NCBI GenBank assembly: GCA_000991805.1
Contig: LBSF01000014.1
Location: forward strand, 1 to 10,495
Length of the DNA: 10,495 nucleotides
Origin: a candidate division WS6 bacterium GW2011_GWC2_36_7
GTDB taxonomy: Bacteria > Patescibacteriota > Dojkabacteria > SC72
Direction of reading: 5' to 3'
A program made the position numbers and the translations under genes. Under the pieces are notes generated by a model. The model was not told the origin of the DNA. It saw nothing but the letters and a program-made list of their open reading frames with translations, and did not search any database. Position 1 is the stretch's first letter, and every line of letters starts with the position of its first letter. Shown piece by piece: positions 3,787 to 6,716 of the stretch.

Positions 3787-3794
3787 CAACGGAA

Positions 3795-3816
3795 AGGACT
3801 GACCTAGGTCAGTCCT
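3795..3816 (+). repeat. Perfect 22-bp palindrome, left copy
   Basis: The half-site AGGACTGACCT is followed directly by its exact reverse complement. The repeat covers the -35 region of the glyS promoter, so it could be an operator for a dimeric regulator. It is also the left arm of the element 3790-4042. It is not followed by a T-run on either strand, so it is not an ordinary terminator. Confidence 0.8.
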
Positions 3817-4016
3817 CCCAAAGAATATGAACGAGCCAAGACCTTAGCTTCATTCGCAATTCTTAGAGTTTTGTATGCCAAAGACCTATGTAGAAAGTTA
3901 CAGGTAGTGAATGCAAAAACATGGAGCTTCAGCCTAAAACCTTGATTCCGCAAATTTATATCGTTGGTAGCGAATATCGTTTTCAGCCAATGGTTTTGGT
4001 AGAAAGTTGAGGGAAA

Positions 4017-4038
4017 AGGATAGACCTAGGTCAGTCCT
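4017..4038 (+). repeat. 22-bp imperfect palindrome, right copy
   Basis: It is identical to the left copy in the 16 bases GACCTAGGTCAGTCCT and differs only at two positions in its first half (TA instead of CT). It lies 30 bases upstream of the lysS -10 box. Confidence 0.75.
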
Positions 4039-4045
4039 TCCGAGG

Positions 4046-4105: not shown

Positions 4106-5650
4106 ATGGAGGATACACAAAGGAGTGATATGCTCGGACAAAGACAAGTAAGATTAGAGAAAATCGAAGCACTCAAGAAGTTAGGTGTGGAGATATATCC
4201 TGCGAAGTCATATAAACAATTTCACAATGGAGAGATATTAAACAACTTTGAAAAATTTGAAGGACAAGAAGTATGTCTTGCTGGAAGAGTTGTAGCTTGG
4301 AGAGAACATGGACAATTACTTTTTGGAAATATAATGGATCAAACTGGAACTCTCCAGATTATGATCAGAGAAAGCGAACTTGTTGAGGATCTAACAAAAG
4401 GATATCTAGGTTTTGATAAACTAACACTTTTGGATTTAGCAGATTTTGTTGAGGTATATGGAACTATTGGTAAAACCAAAACAGGTGAAATCTCAATCAT
4501 GGTTAAGAATATTAGGTTACTTTCTAAAGCATTAAGACCAATTCCTCGAAAATTAGAAAACAAAGAACAGATATTTAGAAGAAGATATCTAGATTTAACC
4601 GTTGAACCTGAGAGAATAAAGTTGTTTGAAAGAAAAGCAAAATTCTGGCAAGTTCAGAGAGATTTGCTCCGAGATGAAGGATTTCTGGAAGTTGAAGTTC
4701 CAGTATTGGAAGCTGTAACTGGTGGAGCTGATGCTGCACCTTTCATTACACATCATAATGCCTTAAACCAAGATTTCTACCTTAGAATTTCTACAGAATT
4801 GTACCAAAAGAGATTAATAGGTGGGGGCTTTGAGAAGGTATATACATTAGGCCCTAACTTCAGAAATGAAGGTATGGATGATGAGCATCTTCAAGAGTAC
4901 TACCAGTTGGAATGGTATTGGGGATATGCAAACTACAGAGACAATATGGATTTAGTAAGAAGGTTGTTCTTAGAAATTGCTAACAAGGTATATGGAAAGA
5001 CTCAATTTACAACCAGAGGTCATACATTTGATTTAGCTGATGAGTGGAAAGAGATTGATTATACAACTGTGATTAAAGAAAGATTTGATATTGATATATT
5101 TAATGATTCGGATGAGAAGATAATGAAAGCTATTAAGGACAACCATATTGAGATGGGTGGGGATGTGAATAGAAATAGAATGATTGATACTCTTTGGAAA
5201 GCTATTCGAGCAACAATTTCTGGTCCTGCATATTTGGTTAACCAACCTAAGATTATTTCTCCTTTAGCAAAATCACATAAGGATAATCCTGAATTAACAG
5301 AGAGATTCCAAGTAGTTATTGCTGGAAGTGAATTGGGTAATGGATATTCTGAGATTAATGATCCTCAAGATCAGTTAGATAGATTCTTGGAGCAGCAAGC
5401 TCTTAGAGAGGGTGGGGATGATGAAGCTCAGATGCTAGATATTGATTTTGTAGAGATGTTGGAATATGGTATGCCTCCTGTAAGTGGATGGGGTCATAGT
5501 GAAAGAGTATTCTGGTTCATGGAAGATATTTCTGGTAGAGAGGGTACTTTTTTCCCACAGATGAGAATAGAGGTTGAGAATACAACAAAGGAAATATACA
5601 AGGACAAAGTCAAATTCAAGGAAACGGTTAAGAAAGAGGAGAGGAAGTAA
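4106..5650 (+). CDS. lysS: Lysyl-tRNA synthetase, class II, divergent motif 3
   Basis: This enzyme charges tRNA-Lys. An N-terminal OB-fold anticodon domain (about 50-140) is followed by the class II catalytic core: RRRYLDL (158-164), ITHHNAL (214-220), motif 2 with FRNEG (252-256), GNGYSEINDPQDQ (411-423) and motif 3 near 455-470. Residues that bind lysine in E. coli LysRS appear conserved (E231, E269, Y271, N412, E416). Departures: GGADAAPF has Ala where most have Arg; the usual RHNPEF is EHLQEY; and motif 3 reads GWGHSER instead of GLGIGIDR, one residue shorter. A basic tail of 27 residues follows FFPQMR. The ATG at 4106 gives 514 residues. An AAGGAG ending 4 bases before the in-frame ATG at 4130 makes a 506-residue product equally plausible. 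A hairpin terminator follows. Confidence 0.93.
   Translation: MEDTQRSDMLGQRQVRLEKIEALKKLGVEIYPAKSYKQFHNGEILNNFEKFEGQEVCLAGRVVAWREHGQLLFGNIMDQTGTLQIMIRESELVEDLTKGYLGFDKLTLLDLADFVEVYGTIGKTKTGEISIMVKNIRLLSKALRPIPRKLENKEQIFRRRYLDLTVEPERIKLFERKAKFWQVQRDLLRDEGFLEVEVPVLEAVTGGADAAPFITHHNALNQDFYLRISTELYQKRLIGGGFEKVYTLGPNFRNEGMDDEHLQEYYQLEWYWGYANYRDNMDLVRRLFLEIANKVYGKTQFTTRGHTFDLADEWKEIDYTTVIKERFDIDIFNDSDEKIMKAIKDNHIEMGGDVNRNRMIDTLWKAIRATISGPAYLVNQPKIISPLAKSHKDNPELTERFQVVIAGSELGNGYSEINDPQDQLDRFLEQQALREGGDDEAQMLDIDFVEMLEYGMPPVSGWGHSERVFWFMEDISGREGTFFPQMRIEVENTTKEIYKDKVKFKETVKKEERK
4120..4125 (+). promoter_or_regulatory. Shine-Dalgarno site that may set the lysS start at 4130
   Basis: AAGGAG lies 4 bases before an in-frame ATG (codon 9 of the longer frame). 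There is no such site before the ATG at 4106. The eight residues in question are not conserved in the family. Confidence 0.45.
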
Positions 5651-5694
5651 AAGGCCAATTCTCGTAAAGCAGTGAAAGATAAGAATTGGCCTTT
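5650..5694. terminator. Hairpin terminator after lysS, possibly bidirectional
   Basis: A perfect 13-bp stem (5650-5662 with 5682-5694) encloses a 19-nt loop, directly at the lysS stop. On the plus strand it runs into TTTATTACT; on the minus strand into TTTTACTT. It could thus end both lysS and the minus-strand tRNA-like transcript. The long loop and weak T-run make it less than ideal. Confidence 0.6.
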
Positions 5695-5754
5695 ATTACT
5701 GGGCTAGAAAAACTCAACCAAGACAAGTGCTCGTTTTCCTAGTTATCCAGTAAT
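5695..5754 (-). other. Closed hairpin element in the tRNA-like cluster
   Basis: ATTACTGG (5695-5702) pairs with CCAGTAAT (5747-5754). Inside, CTAGAAAA (5704-5711) pairs with TTTTCCTAG (5734-5742) with one bulge, leaving a loop of about 22 nt. It abuts the terminator on one side and the tRNA-Thr-like element on the other. No known RNA family is recognised. The minus strand is assumed because of the promoter at 6279-6307. Confidence 0.35.
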
Positions 5755-5759
5755 CTTGA

Positions 5760-5833
5760 TCTATCTTCATGGGAATCGAACCCACATATTCTGAGGACGA
5801 GTCAGATACTTTTCCATTAAGTTATTTGATAGA
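5760..5833 (-). tRNA. tRNA-like element, anticodon CGU (Thr), with disrupted acceptor stem
   Basis: On the minus strand the D-arm (ACTT/AAGT, loop AATGGAA with GG), position 26 A, a perfect 5-bp anticodon stem (TCTGA/TCAGA), a 4-base variable loop and a T-arm with the standard loop TTCGATT are all present. U8 and A9 are in place. The anticodon loop CTCGTCC would give CGU, but positions 37 and 38 are both C, where a purine is normal at 37. The acceptor pairs only in its outer part (TCTATC with GATAGA, one pair beyond the normal end); the three inner positions are AAA opposite GAA. No CCA is encoded. It may be a decaying tRNA gene or a tRNA-derived RNA with another role. Confidence 0.5.
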
Positions 5834-5932
5834 AAAAGACAAAAAGTATTGTTAGTACTAGGGGAATTATATTATCAAAGTTACTATGAGTCAATAAAAA
5901 ATGGGAAATAATGGGGAATAGAAATTTGTTAA

Positions 5933-5994
5933 CCAACCTTTCTTCTCTTTTATACTCCTACGAGTATGCACATAATGGCAAGAAAAAAGGTTGG
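5933..5994 (-). other. Three-way-junction element in the tRNA-like cluster
   Basis: A 13-bp closing stem (5933-5945 with 5982-5994, one U-G pair in the minus-strand RNA) encloses two small hairpins: ATACTC/GAGTAT (5952-5967, loop of four) and a TGC/GCA hairpin (5968-5980). No T-run follows on either strand, so it is not a simple terminator. The shape is the same as at 6181-6238. Confidence 0.4.
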
Positions 5995-6005
5995 GCTATA
6001 TTCGA

Positions 6006-6077
6006 TGGGCACGATAGGGTTTACACCTACATCACAACGAGTATCAGTCGTCTGCTCCGTGATTGAGCTACGTGCCC
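6006..6077 (-). tRNA. tRNA-Ile-like (anticodon GAU) with non-canonical elbow
   Basis: The acceptor stem is perfect (GGGCACG/CGTGCCC) and U8-A9 are TA. The D-stem is GCTC/GAGC, the anticodon stem GACGA/TCGTT, and the loop CTGATAC gives anticodon GAU, as in normal tRNA-Ile. The T-stem is GTAGG/CCTAT and the discriminator is A; CCA is not encoded. The D-loop (AATCACG) has no GG pair, and the T-loop is TGTAAAC instead of TTCRANY. These changes may compensate one another: C18-G55 and A19-U56 would replace G18-pseudoU55 and G19-C56. In addition, five D-loop bases (ATCAC) are exactly complementary to the variable loop (GTGAT). It could be a true but aberrant tRNA-Ile or a tRNA-derived RNA not used by the ribosome. 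Confidence 0.55.
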
Positions 6078-6089
6078 GCGAACAAAAAA

Positions 6090-6176
6090 GTGGTGCATGT
6101 GTTATGGGATTATAACCCTACCGTCTCCATGTCGGCTTGAGAGCGATGCCTCTTTCGAAGCTACACATTGCACCAC
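6090..6176 (-). other. Cloverleaf-like structured RNA element with a 13-bp closing stem
   Basis: GTGGTGCA...TGCACCAC (8 bp) is continued by TGTGT/ACACA (5 bp) across one bulged A. Inside are three hairpins in tRNA order. The first is GCTT/AAGC (6158-6161 with 6135-6138), with AGAG/CTCT inside it. The second is CCG/CGG over the loop ACATGGAGA (6121-6135). The third is GGG/CCC over the loop TTATAAT (6106-6118). Positions that would be 8-11 read TAGC, as in many tRNAs. A33 in place of U33, a 3-bp T-arm and the 87-nt size argue against an ordinary tRNA. It lies 12 nt upstream of the tRNA-Ile-like element on the same strand. Confidence 0.4.
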
Positions 6177-6180
6177 AAAA

Positions 6181-6238
6181 GTGATATCTACTTGATCTAA
6201 AACGCAGACCACGCTCATATTGAGCTGGGTAGATATAC
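6181..6238 (-). other. Truncated tRNA-like element lacking a T-arm
   Basis: On the minus strand ATATCTAC pairs with GTAGATAT (8 bp), extended by two pairs across a bulged base. Inside are a D-arm-like hairpin AGCTCAATATGAGC (stem GCTC/GAGC, loop AATAT), which resembles the start of a normal D-arm but without GG, and a 6-bp hairpin TGGTCT/AGATCA over the loop GCGTTTT. There is no third arm. It is the first element after the promoter at 6279-6307 and only 4 nt from the next one. Confidence 0.4.
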
Positions 6239-6278
6239 TACAGAATTTAAAAGAACAAATTTCATTAATAACAAAGAA

Positions 6279-6307
6279 ATTATAATATAACAATTTCTAT
6301 CGGTCAA
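6279..6307 (-). promoter_or_regulatory. Near-consensus promoter for the minus-strand tRNA-like cluster
   Basis: On the minus strand TTGACC (6302-6307), exactly 17 bases, then a perfect TATAAT (6279-6284). A start near 6272 lies about 34 nt upstream of the first structured element. No gene follows on this strand before lysS, so its product should be RNA. Confidence 0.65.
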
Positions 6308-6329
6308 TCTAAAACAATATATCTATTTC

Positions 6330-6338
6330 TGATATTAT
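6330..6338 (+). promoter_or_regulatory. Extended -10 promoter giving a leaderless mRNA
   Basis: TGA plus TATTAT (hexamer 6333-6338) ends 6 bases before the ATG at 6345, so transcription would begin at the start codon itself. There is no Shine-Dalgarno site. The same arrangement recurs at 10063-10071. Confidence 0.5.
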
Positions 6339-6344
6339 TAATAC

Positions 6345-6716
6345 ATGGAATCAATCAAAGATCTCTTACAACAAATCAAACAAGGAGCTGAAGAAAAAGC
6401 TGATGAAACTACTACACCACAGAGTACACTCTTTGATACAAAGAAATTAGCAACTAATCCTAACAAGCTATTTGATAACAAACATAAGTACATATCTACT
6501 GAATACCAAATGTATGGATTACGATTGGCAGGCAAATTAGATGACAAAAAACGAGCTACAATGTATATCAAATGGGCCAAAGAAAAACCAAGAGCAATAC
6601 TAGAAATGGCATACAGCTTCTGTATAGACTATCCAAGTGCAAGAGATAAAAGTAAGATATTTATGTGGAAAGTAAAAGAACTAGAAGATGAAAGAAAAAA
6701 TAAACCAAAAGAGTAA
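6345..6716 (+). CDS. Small conserved-looking protein of unknown function
   Basis: I do not recognise a named family. The 123-residue product has no signal peptide or membrane segment. Residues 1-45 are polar and low in complexity (a KADETTTPQST stretch) and probably flexible. Residues 50-115 are rich in helix-forming and aromatic residues (YISTEYQMYGLRLAGKL, then TMYIKWAKEKPRAILEMAYSF, then a FMWKVKELEDE helix) and look like a compact helical domain. The tail is basic. The gene likely has its own leaderless promoter. It overlaps the next gene by 29 bases if that gene starts at 6688, so the two are probably translated from one mRNA. It occupies the place where an ABC ATPase gene is often found before permeases of this type, but has no P-loop. 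Confidence 0.75.
   Translation: MESIKDLLQQIKQGAEEKADETTTPQSTLFDTKKLATNPNKLFDNKHKYISTEYQMYGLRLAGKLDDKKRATMYIKWAKEKPRAILEMAYSFCIDYPSARDKSKIFMWKVKELEDERKNKPKE

Follow-up and report, generated by a model that had tools for sequence, protein, structure and literature searches.

What is encoded in some 600 bases of a small bacterial genome that separate two protein genes and hold none themselves? The question is raised by a locus in the MAG of an uncultured bacterium of the Dojkabacteria (CPR/Patescibacteria), here called G000 (568 kb, 73% complete). The window, i.e. the whole stretch of DNA analysed (10,495 nucleotides, contig C14), carries lysS, encoding a lysine-tRNA-synthetase (4106–5650, plus strand), and a 123-aa gene (6345–6716, plus strand) for which a Pfam search gave no family. 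Seven relatives of this lysS lie at 74–89% identity, and five of them bear the name Candidatus Dojkabacteria (CPR/Patescibacteria). The two genes flank an array of predicted RNA elements lying on the minus strand. A first-pass annotation had described ∼600 bases of this region as devoid of a credible ORF, and this holds: the longest ORF has 63 aa, a length equalled in 51 of 200 shuffles.

Predicted RNA elements and promoters beside lysS

Six closed folds had been proposed for the minus strand, and five of them are more stable than dinucleotide shuffles folded in the same way. E1 (6181–6238, minus) is a 58-nt RNA with a long closing stem, a D-arm-like hairpin (GCTC/GAGC) and a further 5-bp hairpin with a 7-nt loop, without a T-arm (fold z −3.7). 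E2 (6090–6176, minus; 87 nt) has four arms and a closing stem of 13 bp with one bulge (z −4.4); it encodes a minus-strand ACCA at 6094–6091, and a U6 run comes next at 6089–6084. E4 (5933–5994, minus; 62 nt) combines a 15-bp closing stem with inner hairpins (z −6.1), and Z (5695–5754, minus) is a 60-nt closed hairpin RNA (z −3.8) whose plus strand folds equally (z −3.7). The remaining two are tRNA-like: X (6006–6077, minus; z −2.3, with 4 of 200 shuffles as stable) and Y (5760–5833, minus), which has a slipped acceptor stem and the anticodon loop CTCGTCC. The fold of Y is no better than shuffles (z −0.7, 49 of 200 as stable), but Rfam recognizes it as a tRNA. E1, E2, X and E4 have a lower fold z as minus than as plus strand; for Y and Z the strands are alike.

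In an Rfam scan of the window, tRNA is the sole family above gathering, with X (6006–6077, 52.7 bits) and Y (5761–5831, 41.2 bits) both on the minus strand; these are the two near-complete cloverleaves with defects that had been noticed by eye. Laxer scans gave weak matches only, far below gathering, and E2 has no Rfam family. GOLLD, ROOL, OLE and other Rfam RNAs are rejected, only tRNA being above gathering and the array units being small and separate. The tRNA-like start of a D-arm reported for E1 and E2 is present, yet the tRNA covariance model matches neither of them, nor E4 or Z. The tRNA similarity of E2 lies slightly above that of shuffled controls (57.5 versus 47). For E1, E4 and Z it is no higher than in shuffled controls, by sequence or by model. 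Common tRNA ancestry of all units is therefore unproven. One tandem repeat occurs in the region, with a 10-nt unit in 2.5 copies at 5896–5920.

The array occupies a place that is closed in 10 other lysS loci, where there is no space for it: the next ORF begins at most ∼40 nt past the lysS stop, or the frame continues. In five of them (L010, L012, L020, L021 and L022), the gene right after lysS is a relative of the 123-aa gene (50–67% identity); in two (L009 and L011) such a relative lies farther downstream, and in the other three (L013, L015 and L016) none was found within 2.5 kb. Eight of the loci were scanned with ARAGORN and Rfam, and neither gave a tRNA past lysS in any. Since these lysS loci leave no room for the array, gave no tRNA there where scanned and often have the 123-aa relative adjoining lysS, the array is probably an insertion between two old neighbour genes, opposite to their direction.

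A near-consensus minus-strand promoter, TTGACC-17-TATAAT, had been placed at 6279–6307. It is present there (P1), with 11 of 12 consensus matches, and would open transcription at ∼6272, leaving a 5′ leader (6239–6272, minus) ahead of E1. The first-pass annotation had assumed a single promoter and unit; it had missed a second site, TTGACT-17-TATAAT (P2, read from 5894 to 5866 on the minus strand), which precedes Y and also has 11 of 12 matches. The stretch 5650–6344 contains two sites that match at 11 or more of 12 positions, against a shuffle mean of 0.038, and two were reached in 1 of 500 shuffles; at a looser threshold of 9/12, the six promoter-like sites are no excess over the shuffle mean of 4.4. 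Lying before E1 and before Y, the two strong sites are read as heading two transcription units, so that there are probably two units, not one: P1 with E1-E2-X-E4, and P2 with Y-Z and then a hairpin. That hairpin (5650–5694), formerly taken as a possible transcript end, is a 13-nt perfect inverted repeat with just 3–4 T; as a terminator scan gave no call, its reading as an intrinsic terminator is rejected, and it is kept as a possible bidirectional terminator. The −10 box of P1 sits inside a palindrome, ATTATAAT (window 6279–6286), which might serve promoters both ways, P1 and one for the 123-aa gene.

Conservation in a sister species

The conservation in close relatives that the first-pass annotation had asked about was found in G002 (locus L008; rated 99% complete), the one other species of the genus with the region covered. 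In a third species, G001, the contig ends inside lysS (L007, taken as G001), and the 123-aa gene is absent from its assembly. In L008, P1, the leader, E1, E2, a tRNA-like RNA and E4 follow in the same order, with 78% identity to the G000 array over 425 bases. Both hexamers of P1 and their 17-nt spacing are identical, and the leader is nearly so. Y, Z, P2 and the hairpin are absent; lysS passes directly into the sequence preceding E4. This absence, together with P2, disfavours the earlier idea of one ornate RNA of ∼620 nt.

The structures of E1, E2 and E4 are conserved between the two species. Together, the three RNAs differ at 11 of 122 paired positions versus 30 of 85 unpaired ones. At 4-fold degenerate sites of ten neighbouring genes, 326 of 753 differ (43%; 0.25–0.68 per gene), so the conservation of the RNAs is not due to a short divergence time. 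A single pair of 61 is broken, the outermost of E2, and three are changed on both sides, in counts that are favoured by the derivation of the structures from the same two sequences folded as minus strand. E1 keeps 18 of 18 pairs, one of them changed on both sides. E2 keeps 27 of 28, none changed on both sides, with changed loops. In E4 all 15 closing pairs survive, two of them with both bases changed, in a score that covers the closing stem only. When the same number of changes was placed at random, as few pairs were broken in 3 (E1), 12 (E2) and 25 (E4) of 20,000 trials. Among the 122 positions read as minus strand, G-U cells outnumber A-C cells by 8 to 1, an argument that the same derivation favours. 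This excess, with the lower minus-strand fold z of E1, E2, X and E4, fits a minus-strand RNA and agrees with P1; the RNAs are probably read from that strand. The whole comparison rests on two genomes, with no deep covariation. The loops at the anticodon position of E1 and E2 differ between the two species, that of E2 having 11 nt. Loop change faster than neutral is not claimed, unpaired positions differing at 35% versus 43% at 4-fold sites. A pairing between the anticodon-position loop and the T-loop of E2 (TTGG/CCAA), possible by eye in L008 only, was dropped.

Upstream of lysS, the glyS–lysS gap (window 3793–4041) contains a stretch of ∼250 bp flanked by two palindrome copies, GGACTGACCTAGGTCAGTCC and a near copy. 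It is missing from the L008 gap and has a 90% match in G001 (contig C68). Further copies of the palindrome occur in G000, G001 and G002, in some places paired ∼525 bp apart; the bracketed stretch is perhaps a small mobile element.

The array has a narrow distribution. When the G002 array was searched as DNA against the class, with at most eight candidates scored per genome, 74 of 85 genomes gave matches; among the matches listed, those covering the whole array are in G000 and G002 only. Almost all others listed fall on the canonical-like tRNA unit of G002 and are ordinary tRNAs, besides a few short AT-rich pieces of the promoter end. Searches with models of E2 (R1) and E1 (R2) used the stricter filters of Infernal, by which weak matches are lost. 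R1 matched 2 of 85 class genomes and 2 of 286 phylum genomes, and E2 was found in no other genus. R2 matched 2 of 85 class genomes and, weakly, G008 (E 0.118, 20.2 bits), which is taken as chance. The Y/Z region was found in its own genome only, besides two short matches taken as chance, one of 50 bases in G036 (E 2.9e-4) and one of 30 bases in G061 (E 4.6e-4). Phages and plasmids gave no array match, and viral contigs gave none for three exact patterns.

How many RNAs the P1 unit yields bears on what it is. The 348-nt stretch 5925–6272 folds with z −5.8 (0 of 100 shuffles as stable), its units are spaced by 4–12 nt, and its two ends are joined by four predicted pairs, which would suit a single structured non-coding RNA of several domains, ∼340 nt long and running from P1 to E4, with tRNA modules as unreleased building blocks. 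The tRNA-Other of Bacillus cereus is likewise reported inside longer transcripts (PMC3399842). Against a single RNA, every unit otherwise stays local in the predicted fold, a U-run follows E2, and slot X, with alignable neighbours on both sides, is filled by a different RNA in each species. This reading is possible, if somewhat unlikely.

tRNA ancestry of X, X′ and Y

X and the tRNALys(CTT) of its host are identical in the first 16 bases and throughout the acceptor stem and D-stem. The nine changes in the anticodon and T stems leave 21 of 21 pairs intact, four of them through changes on both sides; with random placement of the changes in X, all pairs survive in 19 of 100,000 trials. Over the full length, tRNALys is the best match (69.0) and tRNAAsn a close second (65.5). 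In canonical tRNAs, GG of the D-loop and TTC of the T-loop form the elbow contact, and the anticodon loop has 7 nt with U33 and a purine at position 37. The D-loop of X (AATCACG) has no GG and its T-loop (TGTAAAC) no TTC; the anticodon position reads GAT, in a 7-nt loop with U33 and A37. ARAGORN called neither X nor Y as a tRNA. Being tRNA-derived, with stems kept and decoding or elbow features changed, X fits the description of a non-translational pseudo-tRNA. Judged by sequence, at least one unit, X, is thus rebuilt from a tRNA gene, with the shape retained and the elbow and decoding loops lost.

In L008, the slot of X is occupied by a different tRNA-like RNA, X′. It scores 38.9 bits with the Rfam tRNA model, above gathering, and is called by ARAGORN without an isotype; it encodes CCA, its anticodon loop is 6 nt long, and its T-stem carries a bulge. 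Its parent is uncertain: the acceptor is nearest to tRNAAsn by eye, and full-length similarity is about equal to the Arg(TCT), Thr(TGT), Asn and Lys tRNAs. Y has four of seven acceptor pairs by the tRNA model, three being mismatched, and C37 in the anticodon loop. Both X′ and Y keep the D-loop GG and the T-loop TTC, and they are the lowest-scoring tRNA matches of their respective genomes.

Such defects in X, X′ and Y, the broken acceptor and shuffle-like fold of Y and the confinement of Y and Z to one genome are what a tRNA graveyard would leave, i.e. functionless tRNA gene copies decaying at the site where they landed. For Y and Z this part of the first-pass annotation is possible, and both may be decaying. 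For E1, E2, E4 and X it is disfavoured by stems conserved where 4-fold sites differ at 43%, by the four pairs of X repaired on both sides and by P1 hexamers intact in both species, which makes a graveyard improbable for the array as a whole.

Rather improbable, too, is a cassette array, in which E1, E2 and E4 would be a fixed scaffold and the slot between E2 and E4 would take up exchangeable, remodelled copies of host tRNAs. Such copies would keep their stems, lose decoding features and serve either as decoys that divert tRNA-cutting toxins or phage factors, or as sponges that take up tRNA-binding proteins. That X and X′ are working atypical tRNAs in translation, within a tRNA operon with spacer structures, is very unlikely: both are above the Rfam gathering score, X has U33 and A37 in its 7-nt loop and X′ has its encoded CCA, GG and TTC, but X lacks GG and TTC, X′ is one nucleotide short in the anticodon loop (6 nt) and bulged in the T-stem, the slot holds different RNAs in the two species, and canonical tRNAs of the likely parents are present elsewhere (Lys(CTT) and Ile(GAT) in G000, Asn and Thr(TGT) in G002).

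Degenerate tRNAs as a general trait of these bacteria were considered and rejected: in G051, G054 and G064, 116 of 121 tRNA matches, assessed by score and not by individual inspection, pass the cut-off (lowest 48.4 bits). Three of the five below it are tmRNA ends, and two (15.8 bits) match neither tRNA nor tmRNA. The tmRNA genes of three relatives (L130 1563–1972, L131 1602–2013 and L132 1525–1934, minus strand) surfaced in this way, their 3′ ends giving the weak tRNA matches.

Two further observations concern the ordinary tRNA sets. Beside a bacterial-type tRNATyr, G000 has a second tRNATyr (GTA) with a C1–G72 acceptor end and an encoded CCA (L096; G000, contig C37, 1409–1490), and a single tRNATyr was recovered from G002; archaeal-type tyrosine identity is reported from CPR bacteria (PMC5370408). 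No tRNAMet was called in the stretches fetched from G000 and G002, despite the 99% completeness rating of the latter; missing contigs, introns, a search gap or parsing are possible reasons.

Proposed role and known relatives in kind

Of the three readings left by the first-pass annotation, the one of tRNA-derived RNAs with non-translational roles is best supported, by the structure conservation in G002 and by X with its stems kept and its loops changed. We propose, with a probability of roughly 0.55, that the array is a cluster, specific to this lineage, of structured non-coding RNAs that are in part tRNA-derived and stand outside decoding, likely as tRNA mimics. The promoter sequence is conserved, the minus strand fits better, and X is tRNALys-like with its elbow loops lost. 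Insertion of the array, in minus-strand orientation, would have separated lysS from the gene that formerly adjoined it; P1, of sigma-70 type, would drive a transcript of ∼340 nt with E1-E2-X-E4, and the second unit, P2-Y-Z-hairpin, would have been added in G000. The RNAs would be retained because of their shape, with its closing stems, D-like arm and cloverleaf, rather than for a part in decoding. Their likeliest fate would be cutting by tRNA-processing enzymes, or else they would remain joined; transcription, processing and a role outside translation are all predicted from sequence. Their likeliest mode of action would be mimicry of tRNA toward a protein that processes or binds it, the RNAs being its sponge or regulator and the partner a guess; neither neighbouring proteins nor a binding partner gave a functional pointer. 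The GG and TTC loops retained in X′ and Y weigh against the proposal, elbow loss not being found in every unit.

Partial parallels exist. The staphylococcal tRNAGly used for cell-wall synthesis has lost the contacts between D- and T-loops and is out of translation, with the cloverleaf and the charging role kept. X may likewise have lost these contacts and left translation, but no charging role is indicated for the array, and E1, E4 and Z are not cloverleaves. Closest in kind, by likeness and not by homology, is tRNA-Other of B. cereus. It is reported as part of a larger regulatory RNA, tRNA-like in form, without use in translation, with poor lysine charging in vitro and a narrow species range; it is a single element beside a genomic island, and RACE showed its longer transcript (PMC3399842). 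The array would share a tRNA-like RNA apart from translation and the narrow range, its own longer transcript being deduced from sequence; it differs from that account in having several units in a row, a species-variable slot and a CPR host.

Non-canonical tRNAs offer other likenesses: 9/3 allo-tRNAs (PMC7590224) and T-armless mitochondrial tRNAs (PMC7609411) recall the lengthened closing stem and short T-like arm of E2, and the D- and anticodon-like arms of E1 without a T-arm. Unlike the tRNAs so described, E1 and E2 fail the tRNA model and their anticodon-position loops are unconserved between the two species. With GOLLD and ROOL, ornate structured bacterial RNAs (PMC12286853), the array would share structure without a protein product. 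TIGR arrays, reported also from CPR bacteria (PMC12045711), are likewise RNA arrays known from Patescibacteria; a TIGR array is rejected here, with no direct repeat families and no Nop-domain (Tas) protein in the seven window proteins searched. Among the literature matches listed, mainly non-subscription papers, no such array is reported in these bacteria.

Single pseudo-tRNAs with non-translational jobs are already known. The papers listed show no counterpart to several of them lined up behind a conserved promoter, where one slot holds different tRNA derivatives in two sister species. The comparison of these species yields definite, testable structures, and in genomes of ∼0.6–0.8 Mb the retention of such RNAs suggests a real use.
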